A DNA stretch of 15,673 nucleotides from Spirochaetaceae bacterium. GTDB lineage: Bacteria > Spirochaetota > Spirochaetia > Treponematales > Breznakiellaceae. Where the stretch lies: positions 1-15,673 of the forward strand of contig JAITAE010000102.1 of assembly GCA_031284295.1 (NCBI GenBank), read 5' to 3'. This document shows positions 8,394 through 15,520 of the stretch, one piece after another; position 1 is the first letter of the stretch; each line of letters opens with the position of its first letter. Both the position numbers and the translations under genes were made by a program. The notes below the pieces were generated by a model, which had not been told where the DNA came from, searched no databases, and saw only the letters and a list, made by a program, of their open reading frames with translations.

Positions 8394-8613
8394 GTACGAA
8401 GTAGCGGGGGCGTTACGTGTGATTGCTGTTTCATGCAGTGTTACGTTTACTGGCACGGTACGAGGCAGCGGGGGGCGTTACGTGTGATTGTTGTTTCGTG
8501 CAGTGTTACGTTTACTGGCACGGTACGAGGCAGCGGGGGGCGTTACGTGTGATTGCTGTTTCATGCAGTGTTACGTTTACTGTGCATGGTACGAGGCAGC
8601 GGGGGGCGTTACG
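8394..8613. repeat. Tandem repeat, 3.4 units of about 65 bp, between ftsA and ftsZ
   Basis: Units start with GTACGA at 8394, 8458, 8523 and 8589, giving lengths 64, 65 and 66. The fourth is partial and breaks off near 8613. Units 2 and 3 differ at only a few positions; unit 1 differs slightly more at its left end. Each contains GTTACGTGTGATTG and GCAGTGTTACGTTTAC. The open frames across it are repeat shadows: they encode the same peptide over and over in shifting frames and have no ribosome site. Confidence 0.9.
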
Positions 8614-8735: not shown

Positions 8736-9935
8736 ATGAATATCTTGGGAGTTTCTGATATGGAAATCGCAGGACAAAGCGAGACGATAATAAAAGTTAT
8801 CGGCTCAGGCGGCGGCGGTTCCAACGCGGTAAACCGCATGATTGAATCCGGTTTGGATAATGTTCAGTTTATAACGGCAAATACCGATTTGCAGGCGCTG
8901 AACAAGAGCAAGGCGATGGTGAAGCTGCCTATCGGGTCTAAACTGACAGCCGGTCTTGGCGCGGGCGGGCGGCCTGAAGTTGGCGAAAACGCCGCGACTG
9001 AGGACCGCGACATGATTGAAAACGCGCTTCGCGGTGCGGATATGGTGTTCATCACCACGGGCATGGGCGGCGGTACGGGTACGGGTTCGGCGCCGGTCAT
9101 CGCCGAGATCGCGAAATCGCTGGGTGCGCTCACGGTGGGTGTTGTTACGATGCCGTTTGATTTTGAGGGTAAGAGTAAGATGAGTATCGCAAAGGAGGGG
9201 CTCGCCAAGCTGCGCTCCGTCGTTGATGTTATCATAACCATCCCCAATCAGAATGTTTACAAAATTGTTGACCGCCATTCGTCTATGGCTGAAATGTTCC
9301 TGAAGGTTGACGATGTGCTGCGGCAGGGTATCCAGGGTATCTCGGACATGATTACCAAGCACGGCGAGATAAACATTGACTTTGCGGATGTGCGTGAATT
9401 CACGCGCGGTCAGGGCGGCGCGCTGATAGGTATAGGCGGGGGGTCCGGTGAAAACCGTGCCGGGGAGGCTGCGGAAGCGGCTATGAGTAACCCCATGCTT
9501 GAGGTGTCGTCTATAAAGGGCGCTCAAAAAATACTTGTAAATGTTACCGCCGGCAGGGACCTTTCACCGCCTGAATTCCAGGACATAGTAAACAAGGTAA
9601 CGGAATTCGCGGATGAGGATGTGAAGTTGAAGGCGGGCTGGGTTATCGATCAGAGTATGGAGGGGAAGGTTCAGGTAACGGTTGTCGCGACAGGTTTTGA
9701 TGACCCTTCCGTTATAAAGCTTAAACCCATCAAAGACGCGGACGAAAAAAAGGCGGGCGGGCAGCACAGCGATTTTTTGTTTGGCGATGAATGGGACAAC
9801 CTGCGTGGGGGCGATGGAAAGCATCCGCCGCTGCCGCTTCGCGGCGACGATCTTGAGACGCCTACCGTCCTTCGCCGCGGCAGTATGAGCGTTATTGAAA
9901 ACTATGGTCAGTTCAAACAGGGCTGCGCCGGATAA
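8736..9935 (+). CDS. ftsZ: FtsZ, tubulin-like cell division GTPase
   Basis: FtsZ polymerises with GTP into the ring that organises septation. The 399-residue protein has the nucleotide-binding start [18 protein letters not shown] (about 19-36), the tubulin signature [12 protein letters not shown], the GTPase domain with [14 protein letters not shown], and the second domain ([21 protein letters not shown]...VVATGF). The linker runs to a C-terminal LETPTVLRR that resembles the conserved FtsA-binding peptide. Instead of ending there, it continues about 18 residues ([18 protein letters not shown]) through the xer start region. ATG 8736 has GGGGG upstream; ATG 8760, with GGGAG upstream, is an alternative. 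The gap from ftsA suggests partly separate expression. Confidence 0.97.
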
Positions 9936-10914
9936 GGCGCTTGTCGAACGCTACCGGTCCAGGCTTGTAAGTGTGGACCGCCTGTCGCGGCTTTCTGTAG
10001 AAACATACCTTGCCGAAATCCGGCGGCTGCTTGTCTATGCCGGACCGGCGGGCGCGGAAAGCGCGGACAGCGCCACGCTGACGCGCTACCTGGAGGAACG
10101 GGCGCTTAGCGACGGGATAGACTGGCGGAGTACGGCCAAGGCTATCGCCGCGCTGCGCTCATTCTACCGCTTTCTGATCGATTCGGGCGTCAGAAAGGAT
10201 AATCCCGCTTCTCTGCTCGAAGCGCCCAGGAGTGAAGCGCGGCTGCCAGAGGCGCTTCCCGCCGAATCGATAGACGCCCTGCTTGCCCTGATAGATACCG
10301 GCTCGCCGGCTGGCCTGCGGGACAGGGCTCTTTTCGAATTGGTGTACTCGTCCGGTCTCCGCGTCTCCGAAGCTGTTGGCCTTAATGTTGACGACTGCTT
10401 TTTCAGTGAGGCCGTGATTCGGGTTACGGGTAAGGGCAGGAAGGAAAGGCTTGTTCCTTTCGGCTCCGCCGCGGAAGATACGCTACGCCGCTACCTGGCT
10501 CTGGGCCGCCCGTTGCTGCTGAAACCGGGCCGTAAATCGGAGGCGCTGTTCCTGAGCCGTCTGGGGCGGCGGCTTGGCCGTAAGGGTATCTGGAAAAATT
10601 ACGCGGCTCTTGCCGCGCGTAACGGTACAAGCTCAAAACTCCATACGCTGCGTCATAGTTTTGCCACGGAACTCCTGTCCGGCGGCGCGGATATCCGTTC
10701 CGTGCAGGAGCTTCTGGGCCACGCCGATATAAGCACTACGCAAATCTATACCCACGTAGCCGTATCGGCTCTGGAAGACGCGCACAAAAAGTATATGCCG
10801 GTCTTGGATCCCACCCCGCCCACACCAGTGGGTTTAAAGTCCGCTACGCGCCCGCCAGCGGGTTTAAAGTCCGCTACGCGCCCACCAGTGGGTTTAAAGT
10901 CCGCTACGCGGTAG
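9904..10914 (+). CDS. Xer-type tyrosine recombinase (XerC/XerD-like)
   Basis: Tyrosine recombinases of the Xer group resolve chromosome dimers at dif during division. An N-terminal SAM-like core-binding domain (about 10-105, with [14 protein letters not shown] and [18 protein letters not shown]) precedes the catalytic domain. The catalytic residues are all present: Arg153 ([16 protein letters not shown]), Lys177 ([12 protein letters not shown]), His247 and Arg250 ([12 protein letters not shown]), His273 (LLGHADIS) and Tyr282 (TTQIYTH). It should be active. I cannot decide between XerC and XerD. ATG 9904 overlaps ftsZ by 32 bases; the frame extends to TTG 9895, and no clear ribosome site is seen. 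Unusually, after the normal end ([10 protein letters not shown]) a 30-bp DNA repeat encodes three copies of P(V/A)GLKSATR. Confidence 0.92.
10821..10910. repeat. Three 30-bp tandem repeats in the 3' end of the recombinase gene
   Basis: GGTTTAAAGTCCGCTACGCG recurs identically at 10831, 10861 and 10891, an exact 30-bp period. The variable ten bases between are short palindrome-like segments (CACCAGTG or GCCAGCG within CCC...GGG). Because 30 is a multiple of three the frame stays open, adding [14 protein letters not shown] units to the recombinase. The stop codon follows one base after the last unit. The DNA itself looks like a repeat element rather than evolved coding sequence. Confidence 0.9.
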
Positions 10915-12528: not shown

Positions 12529-12741
12529 CTAGTATCCAGACATCATTCAAACTGTAGATTTAAGTTTTGGTATATGGGCGCATCGCCGCTGCGCGGCGAC
12601 CGGGCTATCCGCTCTAATGAACCTCCCCACCCTTCAGGGTGGGGAGGTTCATTCCGCTTCTATCCCTTGCGCGGAGCTTCGTCTCCTGAATAAGATATCC
12701 GCACTGGGAAACCGGTATTTACAATCGTGTCGGGATACTAG
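12529..12741. mobile_element. Dispersed palindromic repeat, copy 1, with short terminal inverted repeats
   Basis: Positions 12529-12682 match the second copy at 15014-15151, from CTAGTATCCAGACATC through GCGGAGCTTCGT. Inside are a conserved hairpin CGCCGC-tgc-GCGGCG and, between the flanks ending CTATCCGCT and starting CCGCTTCTATCCC, an 18-bp perfect palindrome arm pair (12616-12633 with 12636-12653). Beyond the shared part, GGATACTAG at 12733-12741 is the exact inverse of CTAGTATCC at 12529-12537, so the element may be bounded by CTAG-ended inverted repeats (213 bp). The conserved block (reverse complement has GGGATAGAAGCGG and GCGGATAGCCCGGTCGC) resembles REP-like repeats; that family link is inference. 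Confidence 0.7.
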
Positions 12742-12778
12742 CCGTTTATGATGGAGGCGTTGTGAGGCGAGTGAGTAT

Positions 12779-12976
12779 GCGGTTCCAAAGGCGCGGCCTT
12801 TGGCCCGGAATGTGCTAATAACACGGCAGCCAAAGCCTCCACCCGCAGTTCCAAAGGCGCAGCCTTTGGCCCGGAATGTGCTAATAACACGGCAGTCAAA
12901 GCCTCCACCGGCAGTTCCAAAGGCGCAGCCTTTGGCCCGGAATGTACTAATGATGCGGCAGTCAAAGCCTCCACCC
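12779..12976. repeat. Three exact-period 66-bp tandem repeats
   Basis: Units occupy 12779-12844, 12845-12910 and 12911-12976, differing at only a few positions. Each contains a hairpin CCAAAGGC-gca-GCCTTTGG and the segment CCCGGAATGT(G/A)CTAAT. As 66 is a multiple of three, several frames stay open on both strands with 22-residue repeats; none has a ribosome site or recognisable protein, so I treat them as shadows. The remaining bases to 13100 include two copies of CGGAGGGGGTAACG (about 12981 and 13063) and no gene. Confidence 0.85.
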
Positions 12977-13100
12977 GCCACGGAGGGGGTAACGGGAGGG
13001 GCGTTGAGGCGGCTGGGAGTTAAGGGGAACTTCCCAGGCATTACATTCTGCTACCGTCCCGCGGAGGGGGTAACGCCTGTGTTTGCTGAAAGGCGCCGCT

Positions 13101-14597
13101 CTATGAAGCCGGCTGGCCGGCGGATGTCCTGGTATTAGTGTCAAAAACTTTGTCTATCAGCGATTTTTCGGGCGGTTTTGTGAAGACGGACACTAGAGGG
13201 ACAATGATGAACGGCGCGATGATCGCTATTGAGGCGGTGAGCGGGGAATTGGACGGGCCGAGTATGAAAAACAATGCCATTTCTATGGCTAAACCGCTTA
13301 AAAGACCTGCGTAAGCCGCCGCTTTGCTTGCCCGTTTCCAGTACAATCCATAGATGAAGGGCGCGGCGAATGAACCGGAAACCGCGCCCCAACTGAGCGA
13401 CATCAGGTACACTATGATGCTGATCTGAAAACGCGATATGAAGTAAGAGACGATTATGAACAGCAGTGAAAGAAAACGCATCATGGCGGTTGAGCGGTCT
13501 TTACCGGTGCCGGGATCGTTCTTTACAGGGTAAAGGTCGATCGCGACGGACGATGACGAAATCATAACGAGGGACGACAGGGTAGACATCGATGCCGACA
13601 GCACAAACAACAGAATCAACGCCGTCAGTGTTTCAGGCAGATGTTCCGTAAGCAGCGTCGGCACTATCAGATCGAACAGGATTTTGCCGTCAGCCGCGCG
13701 CGGTAAGGTGTCGGGCGTAAAAAAGATGTGCGCCGAACTGCCGACCAGGTAGGCCGAGAAACCGATGATCGCCGCAAATATTGTCGTGACAATTACCGCT
13801 TTCGGAATGACCTTTTCGTTTTTTATCGCGTAGAATTTCTGTGTCATCTGCGGCAGGGCCCAGGTACCGAAGCTGGTCATAAACACCAGCGATGCGACGG
13901 TAAGGAAACCTGGACGGGCGGCGGGCGGAATGTGTTCGTTGTAGTTTTCCGCAATGCCGGCAAGGAACGAGCCCAGCCCGCCGCCTTCAGAAACGATTAT
14001 GAAAACCATCGCCAGCGCACCCGCTATCATCAAAAGTCCCTGGATAAAGTCTATTACCACAACGGCAAAGTAGCCGCCCAGTATCAGGTATACGCCGGTA
14101 AACGCTATCATCAGGATCAGGGCCGTATTGTATGGGATGTGAAAGACAGCCTCGAACAGGTGCCCAAGCCCTTTGAATATCGAAGCCGAGTATGGCAGCA
14201 GGAACAGGAATACGATGACCGCCGCTATCGGTTTGAGGTGTTTCGCGCCGTAACGTTCCTGCAGGTAACCGGGCATCGTCATCGCGTCCAGATTCTGCGT
14301 CTGCCGCCGCGTCCGTTTGGCCAGTACGAGCCATGCCAGCATGGAGCCGATAAAAGCGTTTCCCGCAGCTATCCACAGGCTGTTAAGACCGAACAGCCAG
14401 CCCTGGGTTCCGGCGAAACCTATAAAAATAACGGCGGAAAAGTACGATGTGCCATAAGCAAAAGCCGACACCCAAGGGCCCATCTTGCGCCCGCCCAGAA
14501 AAAAATCTCCAAGCGTCTTTGTGCGCGTCATTCCCCATATTCCGATACCCGTAAGCAGGGCAAAGAAAATCACCAAAAGTACGATGTGAAAAACCAT
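13101..14597 (-). CDS. Sodium:solute symporter (SSS family)
   Basis: The 498-residue polytopic membrane protein has about 13 hydrophobic segments and is predicted to import a solute with Na+. After the first helix (MVFHIVLLVIFFALLTGIGIWG) comes TKTLGDFFLGGRKMGPWVSAFAYGTSYFSAV, the typical loop and discontinuous TM1 of the family. Next are DAMTMPGYLQERYG and LILGGYFAVVVIDFIQGLLMI, the position of the family signature. A helix with SASMSTLSSLVMISSSSVAIDLY carries the Ser residues expected at a Na2 site. The solute (proline, pantothenate, sugar or other) cannot be read from the sequence. ATG at 14597 has no clear ribosome site. It lies downstream of tRNA-Pro on the same strand, separated by a 14-bp hairpin. 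Confidence 0.9.
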   Translation of the reverse strand: MVFHIVLLVIFFALLTGIGIWGMTRTKTLGDFFLGGRKMGPWVSAFAYGTSYFSAVIFIGFAGTQGWLFGLNSLWIAAGNAFIGSMLAWLVLAKRTRRQTQNLDAMTMPGYLQERYGAKHLKPIAAVIVFLFLLPYSASIFKGLGHLFEAVFHIPYNTALILMIAFTGVYLILGGYFAVVVIDFIQGLLMIAGALAMVFIIVSEGGGLGSFLAGIAENYNEHIPPAARPGFLTVASLVFMTSFGTWALPQMTQKFYAIKNEKVIPKAVIVTTIFAAIIGFSAYLVGSSAHIFFTPDTLPRAADGKILFDLIVPTLLTEHLPETLTALILLFVLSASMSTLSSLVMISSSSVAIDLYPVKNDPGTGKDRSTAMMRFLSLLFIIVSYFISRFQISIIVYLMSLSWGAVSGSFAAPFIYGLYWKRASKAAAYAGLLSGLAIEMALFFILGPSNSPLTASIAIIAPFIIVPLVSVFTKPPEKSLIDKVFDTNTRTSAGQPAS

Positions 14598-14679
14598 AGG
14601 TATAGTTTAACCAATATCAAAAAAGAATCCAGATACACGCGGTCACCGGCAGGCAATTTTACATTAAAAGATTTTTTCA

Positions 14680-14711
14680 TACATCAAAACCACCTGTGTG
14701 GTTTTGATGTA
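14680..14711. other. Perfect 14-bp hairpin between tRNA-Pro and the symporter gene
   Basis: TACATCAAAACCAC (14680-14693) and GTGGTTTTGATGTA (14698-14711) are exact complements around a CTGT loop. On - it lies just behind the tRNA 3' end and ahead of the symporter. It is followed on - by TGAAAAAATC rather than a T-run, so it is not a textbook terminator, though it could end or process the tRNA transcript. A 36-codon frame starting just behind it on - (MKKSFNVKLPAG) overlaps the symporter start and is doubtful. Confidence 0.6.
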
Positions 14712-14728
14712 CGCGCTGTACGCTCTAT

Positions 14729-14801
14729 TCGGAAGGGGGGGATTTGAACCCCCGCTGTCCAGTTCCCAAAACTGGCGGCTTAACCACTGGCCTACCCTCC
14801 G
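14729..14801 (-). tRNA. tRNA-Pro (anticodon UGG)
   Basis: The reverse complement of 14729-14801 folds as a 73-base tRNA. The acceptor stem is CGGAGGG/CCTTCCG with one G-U pair and discriminator A; the C1-G72 pair is typical of bacterial tRNA-Pro. The D-arm is GGC...GCC, the anticodon stem CCAGT/ACTGG with loop TTTGGGA, giving anticodon TGG followed by G37, as in tRNA-Pro. The T-arm is GGGGG-TTCAAAT-CCCCC. The CCA end is not encoded. Confidence 0.95.
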
Positions 14802-14812
14802 TTACTAAATAC

Positions 14813-14842
14813 AGTATCCTATTCATTGCGTTCCAGGGTCAA
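14813..14842 (-). promoter_or_regulatory. Likely promoter of tRNA-Pro
   Basis: On -, TTGACC (14842-14837) and GATACT (14818-14813) are separated by 18 bases. The predicted transcription start falls about five bases before the mature tRNA 5' end. The -35 is strong, the -10 matches four of six positions. Position supports the call more than the -10 does. Confidence 0.5.
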
Positions 14843-15013
14843 TGAGGCGGACGCAGGTCCCATGCGCGTTTAGTTAATGGACTTGCCCACATATTACACG
14901 GATTTTCACAGATTACCCAGGACGTGATATGAAAATCCACGTTAATCCGTGCGCTCCATCGATTCTAAAGTAAAGGCCGATAGATTTTTCGTCCGCAGTT
15001 ACGCGAATTAATA
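14843..15013. other. Gene-free stretch with an imperfect inverted repeat
   Basis: No gene. CACGGATTTTCACAGATTAC (from 14897) faces TGAAAATCC (14930-14938) and AATCCGTG (14944-14951), forming nested complementary pieces; the CACGGATT motif resembles the one near 11220. It looks like degraded dispersed repeat. The remaining bases show nothing I recognise. Confidence 0.45.
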
Positions 15014-15151
15014 CTAGTATCCAGACATCATTCAAACTGTGTTTTAGTTTTGGAATTTGGACCCGCATCGCCGCTACGCGGCGACCGGGCTATCCGCTAT
15101 AATAACGCCGGACGGCGTTATTCCGCTTCTATCCCTTGCGCGGAGCTTCGT
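15014..15151. mobile_element. Dispersed palindromic repeat, copy 2
   Basis: This copy matches 12529-12682 at its left end (CTAGTATCCAGACATC), the hairpin CGCCGC-tac-GCGGCG, CGACCGGGCTATCCGCT, and the right block through GCGGAGCTTCGT. At the internal site it carries a different, shorter palindrome: AATAACGCCG (15101-15110) with CGGCGTTATT (15113-15122), loop GA. The right terminal repeat seen in copy 1 is absent; the sequence passes directly into a truncated transposase gene. An open frame starting at 15050 runs through it but is not coding here. Confidence 0.7.
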
Positions 15152-15520
15152 GTCCATAACAGGTTTACCTGTTGTTACCGGAATGAGCGGTCTTCGGTAG
15201 ATAATCCCAAAGACAAACGGATTGAGACCTTTGGCCTCAACGATTTTGGTACGGCTCAATTTTTCAAAACCCTAACGGCGGACACTCACGTTCTCATTGA
15301 GTCGACCGTCACGACCTTTTCTTTTGCCCGGCTGTTCAAGGATCGGGTGAAAGAGGTCGTGACAGCCAACACCTACGAATTGAAGCAGATTTCGGCATAC
15401 GTGCCGCGTCTTGCCCGGTGCAACACGGACAAGATCGACGCGGACAAACTGTGCCGGATTATCAAGATGCAGGTACTCGCCGGGGAACAACTGGTATCGC
15501 CGGTTACGATTTTTAAATGA
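15152..15520 (+). pseudogene. IS110-family transposase, N-terminal fragment truncated at both ends
   Basis: About 120 residues read like the N-terminal DEDD domain of IS110/IS116/IS902-type transposases: FTCCYRNERSSVDNPKDKRIETFGL, then TLTADTHVLIESTVTTFSFARLF, then VKEVVTANTYELKQI, then the family hallmark TDKIDADKLCRIIKMQV and EQLVSPVTI. The family's normal first strand with its catalytic Asp (a GIDLH-type start) is missing: the frame instead comes out of the dispersed repeat ending at 15151. The 3' part also ends early, at TGA 15518-15520, and the following sequence does not resemble the rest of a transposase. It is therefore a dead fragment. DEDD transposases of this type use a central dinucleotide core and, in some relatives, a bridge RNA; nothing of that kind can be recognised here. 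Confidence 0.7.

Follow-up and report, generated by a model that had tools for sequence, protein, structure and literature searches.

Variable hairpins in Flavo-1 repeats of a Spirochaetaceae genome and its relatives

Flavo-1 appears as a candidate RNA in a 2010 listing (Weinberg et al., PMC2864571), is filed by Rfam as a small RNA (sRNA; RF01705), and is placed among the most abundant bacterial sRNA families by a 2022 review that gives no function for it in its accessible part (PMC9029176). Repetitive extragenic palindromic (REP) elements, including bacterial interspersed mosaic elements (BIMEs) and REPINs with their REP-associated tyrosine transposases (RAYTs, or TnpA-REP), are likewise dispersed intergenic hairpins, and the accessible text of one study adds that REPs also serve as targets of insertion sequences (ISs) (PMC1525189). 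Integron attC sites resemble Flavo-1 in joining a conserved base to a variable terminal hairpin, at least as outlined in the accessible sections of PMC3607928 and PMC4909258. Template-switch mutation of hairpins, described in the accessible part of PMC8794818, would in a single event preserve a perfect stem or make one. In this work, we analyzed a stretch of 15,673 nucleotides from a Spirochaetaceae bacterium (contig JAITAE010000102.1; hereafter the window), which holds two copies of a repeat with matching flanks and different palindromes. We consider it likely that both copies are Flavo-1 elements whose two hairpins, P2 and P4, are exchangeable modules that are swapped block-wise and renewed by IS200/IS605-like inserts.

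The family itself is already known, and what is added here is the hairpin exchange, a three-way junction, and a reading at the DNA level. The accessible text of the original Flavo-1 report (PMC2864571) mentions neither hairpin exchange, nor many copies in Spirochaetes, nor a reading at the DNA level. Literature searches, including searches by sequence, surfaced no paper on this element, and the text of RepRanger (PMC12306157) contains no word starting with "Rfam" and has "flavo" solely inside genus names.

Two Flavo-1 copies and a three-way junction

The original prediction described two copies with matching flanks and different palindromes, and its coordinates, arms, loops, and flanks all proved right on direct reading. 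The palindrome P4 is AATGAACCTCCCCACCCT-TC-AGGGTGGGGAGGTTCATT in copy 1 and AATAACGCCG-GA-CGGCGTTATT in copy 2, each with a 2-base loop (Table 1). In both copies the unit has the order GCGCA (CCGCA in copy 2), hairpin, CC, GGGCTATCCGCT, palindrome, CCGCTTCTATCCC, T, and TGCGC. Copy 1 runs on to 12741, where it closes with an inverted copy of its own start; this right inverted end is missing from copy 2 (locus L013). Across the window, we found four perfect hairpins (arms of at least 10, loop of at most 4) with a longest arm of 18, compared with a mean of 0.1 such hairpins and a longest arm of 12 in 30 approximate dinucleotide shuffles.

The Rfam Flavo-1 model matches both copies on the minus strand over positions 1-76 of 76, with scores below the gathering score of 42 bits (Table 1). 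Among 18 loci retrieved with the same core (one from a viral contig, one from Treponema, and the rest from the genome collection), 13 exceed the gathering score at that core, and a 14th, L101, exceeds it at another copy, its metH copy staying below; no match above the gathering score was found in the remaining L064, L068, L113, and L179. Because loci with the same core exceed the Rfam score, we assign the window copies to the known family, of which they are, as judged from their sequence, divergent members. The element shares with Rfam's Flavo-1 the core, the internal loop, P4, and a Bacteroidetes host range, whereas the Rfam model comprises 76 positions on the other strand and lacks P1 and P2. 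The full unit exceeds this model and is a three-way junction made up of an outer stem (P1), a variable hairpin (P2), a conserved-core stem (P3), and the variable palindrome P4.

The junction is supported by paired changes. Among 182 distinct copies drawn by the exact-core pattern, the variable core pair is A-T in 116, T-A in 64, and T-T in two, and so covaries in 180; Flavobacterium copies show a third state, G-C, and several of them have T-A at the inner pair C44-G93. A perfect 5-bp P1 is present in 151 of the 182 copies; shuffling right halves among copies gives 45 on average and 58 at most. Its variants include GCGCA/TGCGC, GCGTG/CACGC, GCGTT/AACGC, GGGTG/CACCC, GCGCC/GGCGC, and others. Alignment A1 was entered by copies with an exact P1, a stem distance of 18-27, and a core length of 44-70 (75 chosen, 56 aligned). 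In these selected copies, 87.0% of the cells are paired vs. 67.5% after shuffling, and the covariation score is 0.503 vs. 0.159 for shuffled copies and 0.12-0.25 when the partners are slid. The P1 and P2 figures of A1 are raised by the requirement for a perfect P1, and 151 of 182 is the less selected figure. Strings of hairpin modules (e.g., CTCAACGCGCAAGCGCGTTGAG and AATCAAACCGCTTTCAGCGGTTTGATT) follow many elements downstream of P1 in G001, a genus mate of the window's organism (L220-L277).

The element is not limited to the two window copies. The window's genome (G000) has 16 exact-core copies on 15 contigs (none for the reversed control pattern), 18 once the A/T core variant is allowed, and 32 covariance-model matches at E 0.01. 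Among 16 chosen genomes, G001 has at least 148 model matches, G027 at least 145, and G004 68; 150 candidates were scored per genome, so that the high counts are lower bounds. The genome-wide copy set contains many copies with unrelated, near-perfect hairpins at the same points, as had been anticipated.

Hairpin variation at orthologous sites and at the P4 foot

Orthologous sites in Flavobacterium show how the hairpins differ. The queried metH region was matched in 145 of 150 Flavobacterium genomes, and in the 20 loci that matched best, each from a different genome and one of them from the query itself, we read the Flavo-1 copy lying between metH1 and metH2. P2 at this site is of type TCC..GG in 15 of the 20 species and TTTCGCCGnGGCGAA in the other five. 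On the metH2 gene tree, the P2 type requires five changes, of which well supported branches force at least three, and is spread over the tree like shuffled labels (mean 4.7), whereas the core variant on the far side of P2 requires three changes and is clustered (a count this low was reached in 3 of 500 shuffles). Thus, two unrelated hairpins alternate as P2 at the metH site, within a locus that otherwise tends to follow the tree. In addition, four site pairs between Flavobacterium genomes keep the element and have a different P4. Judged by eye from the starts of open reading frames (ORFs), both neighboring genes are alike in L363/L374 and L355/L360 and one is alike in L359/L362 and L366/L370; the rare G-C core pair is common to L363 and L374. 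The P2 switching and these site pairs bear out the proposal that the palindrome changes as a whole block.

Within G001, 61 strict-core copies were read. The 54 copies with an exact P1 (the other seven were left out) have 37 distinct P2 strings, and a looser count gives 43 strings in 61 copies, some of the strings being incomplete. The stems of the distinct P2 hairpins contain 337 Watson-Crick pairs and nine mismatches. All P4 palindromes but one belong to three families, and the class of P2 shows no association with that of P4 (permutation p 0.52; 57 copies classed by our own string rules, the four without a P2 class left out). In the largest P4 family (T1; 40 copies of 15 pairs), 591 of 600 cells are Watson-Crick, with 36 two-sided and nine one-sided changes. 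Pairs 1-7 never vary, and pair 9 is A-T in 23 copies, G-C in 12, C-G in three, and T-A in two, with no mismatch. Pairs 8-11 of T1 (L220-L277) are hypervariable yet nearly always paired, and lie between almost invariant stretches. Imperfect intermediates, which would point to ordinary mutation, were thus found within one P4 family (9 of 40 copies), and none were seen between families.

For copy 1 of the window, the origin of the different P4 can be followed in sister copies. L428 carries a 182-bp insert exactly at the P4 foot, AAT/GAACCTCCCC...CACTGCGAAT/AACGCC (also written AAT/GAACCTCCCCACCCTTCAGGGTGGGGTATC...GGGCGGGGTATTAGACTCCACTGCGAAT/AACGCC), with the usual palindrome still alongside. L416 has the same left end, without the right part and without the usual palindrome. 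Copy 1 and L015 have solely AATGAACCTCCCCACCCT-TC-AGGGTGGGGAGGTTCATT at P4; the perfected hairpin is carried by L012 and L015. This P4 is the left-end hairpin of the insert, its arms extended outward by nine bases complementary to its own start. Because of the sister copies L428 and L416, the between-family difference of copy 1 is explained by insertion, and the two window palindromes share just AAT/ATT because AAT is the foot that the insert joins. The idea of an insertion site for palindromes therefore held, the P4 foot being the insertion point in L428, and P4 of copy 1 looks like the remaining end of a small mobile element that had inserted into the repeat. In the window's genome, the commonest P4 family is AATAACGCC..GGCGTTATT, whose start was found in 9 of the 18 strict copies.

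The L428 insert has end hairpins, no terminal inverted repeats (TIRs), and a fixed short left flank, as IS200/IS605-like miniature inverted-repeat transposable elements (MITEs) do, and we take its anatomy to be that of an IS200/IS605-type mini-element. It shares with IS200/IS605 elements and their non-autonomous derivatives the left flank AAT and an end in AAT, and differs in having no transposase gene. Inserts of this kind elsewhere form eight distinct rows with end hairpins and no inverted ends, although L202 looks different. AAT precedes the left-end motif in 23 of 23 matches listed, many of these coinciding in place; AAT is demanded by the insert pattern search and not by this listing. The Y1 loci L017, L185, and L203, from the window's genome and a related one, have a similar hairpin and a GGTATTAAACC-like end, and their left end is not the same.

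A different origin of the copy 1 palindrome is two inverted mini-element insertions, on the AAT and ATT strands, followed by deletion of the middle and involving no fold-back copying. Such a history would place AAT at one P4 foot and ATT at the other and would make both arms equal to the left end, as observed, but no copy with two opposed inserts was found among the 10 inverted-end segments read, and we regard it as a possible though doubtful route.

Some copies in the window's genome lie inside repeats with the inverted ends CTAGTATCCnGACA. This genome contains 39 inverted-end matches with at most one mismatch, and 10 distinct paired inverted-end segments of 155-396 bp, L428 being one of them, occur among the loci read (at most two mismatches). 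The inverted ends stand at a fixed spacing in many copies, as expected of a TIR transposon or MITE. A CTAG target duplication is not separable from the inverted end of this carrier, because the carrier itself ends in CTAG.

Flavo-1 is, on our reading, a dispersed three-way-junction hairpin repeat of about 75-110 bp in Bacteroidota and Spirochaetes, and part of the copies in the window's genome ride in a repeat of 211-215 bp with inverted ends. The comparisons above establish family membership by homology, the structure, the block-wise change, and the insertion intermediates, and gene conversion, template switching, and a role at the DNA level are inferences from them. The core is conserved, and P2 and P4 would be replaced block-wise between copies, most likely through gene conversion anchored in the core. 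Insertion of IS200/IS605-like mini-elements at the AAT foot of P4 would supply new hairpins, and the complementarity of the arms would be kept by hairpin template switching, by selection, or by both. Copy 2 would have kept the usual P4 of its genome, and copy 1 would carry the left-end hairpin of an insert with outwardly extended arms. We infer that the route of exchange is gene conversion, template switching, or a dedicated enzyme; template switching as described in the accessible part of PMC8794818 leaves the exchange between two fixed hairpin types unexplained.

DNA or RNA level and candidate recombination systems

Wobble pairs and gene orientation bear on the level at which the element acts. 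With each distinct hairpin counted once, 135 P2 stems contain 1214 Watson-Crick, 4 G.T, 22 A.C, and 18 other pairs, and 220 P4 stems contain 2838, 88, 60, and 104, respectively. P2 wobble leans to the Rfam strand (p 0.0005), and P2 and P4 pooled have no strand lean (92 vs. 82). The acceptor stems of 16 of 18 tRNAs from the same loci, a small control, gave 6 G.T and 0 A.C. Assignment of a functional strand from wobble pairs was dropped, as P2 and P4 give opposite answers. Gene orientation, scored for 27 copies in three Flavobacterium genomes, is ++ in nine, -- in eight, +- in five, and -+ in five (3 of 30 loci without the core near the centre were left out).

A structured non-coding RNA, whose stems drift by compensatory mutation under selection for the fold, would agree with the strong covariation, the Rfam filing as sRNA, the excess of G.T over A.C in P4, and the one-sided intermediates in G001. 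Moreover, several 5' transcribed regions of F. psychrophilum coincide with Flavo-1 matches according to the accessible text of PMC9723704. However, hairpins at orthologous sites are replaced as blocks with intermediates unseen, P2 has hardly any wobble and leans to the other strand, and copies occur in both orientations to genes. The same transcript study, in its accessible text, also reports no strand preference, the matches being sense or antisense alike and many of them lying outside transcribed regions (PMC9723704). We therefore find it unlikely that compensatory drift of an RNA explains the variation. Because P2 wobble is scarce and gene orientation is mixed, the evidence favors a DNA-level element that would act on DNA at least as much as on RNA, and an RNA role is also possible. 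Should the hairpins be DNA modules that are traded as whole units at fixed sites, covariation by itself would not prove an RNA here. If block exchange is true, Flavo-1 would be a natural system in which to measure the making, keeping, and swapping of perfect palindromes in bacterial chromosomes.

Several points weigh against exchangeable DNA modules renewed by inserts. Block exchange is read from comparisons, and no exchange event was directly observed. P4 has more G.T than A.C pairs (88 vs. 60, p 0.03) and leans to the strand opposite that of Rfam. The one-sided changes in T1 indicate that mutation with compensation works within a family, and 35 of its 36 two-sided changes fall in arm pairs 8-11, a concentration not expected from simple template switching. 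The metH2 tree is itself weakly supported, with 3 of 17 inner branches well supported and seven open. Since the drawing pattern fixes the core, the invariance of the core in pattern-drawn sets is a product of selection. Two inserts in opposite orientations could also have produced the perfect palindrome of copy 1, and no autonomous IS with exactly the ends of the L428 insert was found. Finally, the inverted-end carrier is not general: among the 18 strict copies, five have both ends, seven have one, and six have neither (at most two mismatches; one copy near a contig end has just nine bases to its right).

Movement of a REP-like element by a RAYT was part of the original prediction and would suit dispersed hairpins in many copies, as well as the subclass 2.6 RAYTs of Bacteroidetes, which the accessible text of PMC6006769 describes as flanked by atypical structures with copies elsewhere. 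This link was not recovered in the sampled Y1 loci, the 2.6-like genes, or the copy-rich genomes. A sample of 32 Y1 loci, two pairs of which overlap in part, gave a single match of covariance model R1, located upstream of a gene ending in the subclass-1.2 motif, and an exact-half scan of the same loci gave one right half, in L185. Around two subclass-2.6-like genes, inspection by eye found other palindromes. G001 has solely a broken Y1 remnant despite its copy number (incomplete metagenome-assembled genome, MAG, 88%), and no Y1 match was found in G027 (incomplete MAG, 86%). A GTAG-type foot (GT[AG]G; taken, like the subclass motifs, from the accessible text of PMC6006769) was not seen by eye at the hairpins in A1. 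Flavo-1 further differs from REP, BIME, and REPIN systems by its three-way junction, and we find mobilization by a RAYT hardly credible. The genus mates G010 and G007 have 47 and 19 weak Y1_Tnp matches, perhaps from an amplified Y1-like family.

The metH1-metH2 gap (L308-L353) is a hot spot of differing small ORFs, mostly on the metH2 strand, with the element adjoining metH2. We examined 46 loci (the 20 best matches and 26 chosen from the match list), two of which, L335 and L353, lack metH2. Under the strict motif, the element is present in 30 of 44 gaps; in L310, L320, and L328 it occurs with an altered or truncated core. The five gaps that measure 82-145 bp contain neither the motif nor a 60-codon ORF. 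The order in L314 is gene-element-gene-element.

An attC-like recombination site for gene cassettes would account for metH gaps in which differing small ORFs accompany the element, for the five short gaps with neither, for the two copies with one gene each in L314, and for the antitoxin/toxin-like ORFs (by eye) near two direct Treponema copies. However, the one gap gene family that we followed lies at the metH site in 13 of its 15 matches with E below 1e-15, and no gene-to-element orientation rule was found in the three Flavobacterium genomes. The RYYYAAC and GTTRRRY boxes, as defined in the accessible sections of PMC3607928 and PMC4909258, are absent from A1 by eye, and Flavo-1 also differs from attC in its three-way junction and in having no general cassette rule. 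We consider a cassette site very unlikely. It is also improbable, if somewhat less so, that Flavo-1 is a single-strand DNA "socket" at which a putative enzyme would recognize the core and junction and exchange P2/P4 cassettes in trans, together with neighboring genes at some sites such as Flavobacterium metH1-metH2.

Distribution and features of the window

The exact core was found in 18 of 59 relatives and in 4 of 198 genomes of the phylum, the window's genome included in both counts. A pattern scan with one genome per species gave at least 120 stretches. The 80 of these whose titles were listed belong to Spirochaetes and Bacteroidota except for one Clostridiales Family XIII bin, which may be mis-binned. 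The pattern was also found in 11 stretches of viral contigs. Model matches (E 1e-4, strict filters) occur in 20 of 148 sampled genomes of the phylum of Flavobacterium, the query Flavobacterium included; 28 candidates were scored per genome, and the top count of 28 is a lower bound. Phage and plasmid relatives were sought by blastn, which returned one and 60 records, respectively, with short partial matches alone; three plasmid places were inspected and dropped. In Treponema (G196/G161; L179:1478-2302, L183, and L184), two direct Flavo-1-like copies are separated by approximately 750-860 bp. Antitoxin/toxin-like ORFs, judged by eye, occur close to them, and in L179 the interval between the copies holds an Rfam TD-2 match.

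Table 1. Features of the two Flavo-1 copies in window coordinates.
Feature	Position	Strand	Score
Copy 1, 213-bp repeat between inverted ends CTAGTATCCAGACA / TGTCGGGATACTAG; MITE-like in the window's genome; contains Flavo-1 unit	12529..12741	+	
Copy 1, Flavo-1 three-way-junction unit; P1 is 12578-12582 with 12668-12672	12578..12672	+	model R1 84.3 bits
Copy 1, hairpin P2 (TCGCCG/CGGCGA)	12583..12599	+	
Copy 1, conserved core, left side GGGCTATCCGCT (P3 GGGcTA)	12602..12613	+	
Copy 1, palindrome P4, 18-bp arms; matches left-end hairpin of IS200/IS605-like mini-element	12616..12653	+	
Copy 1, conserved core, right side CCGCTTCTATCCC	12654..12666	+	
Copy 1, Rfam Flavo-1 (RF01705) match, under gathering score	12594..12682	-	29.5 bits, E 0.0015
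Copy 2, left end and Flavo-1 unit as in copy 1; without right inverted end	15014..15152	+	
Copy 2, Flavo-1 unit; one mismatch in P1	15063..15141	+	model R1 73.5 bits
Copy 2, palindrome P4, 10-bp arms; short member of the commonest P4 family of the window's genome, AATAACGCC..GGCGTTATT	15101..15122	+	
Copy 2, Rfam Flavo-1 match, under gathering score	15079..15151	-	27.1 bits, E 0.0068

Right behind copy 2, an open frame without a Pfam match extends over 15182-15517. It is reminiscent of the start of an IS110-type transposase, which may have removed the right end of copy 2. Elsewhere in the window, a tyrosine recombinase gene (9895-10914) directly follows ftsZ and has 34-nt repeats, 30 bases apart, at its 3' end. 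Tandem repeats occur at 8406-8600 (three copies of a 65-bp unit) and at 12779-12976 (three copies of a 66-bp unit).

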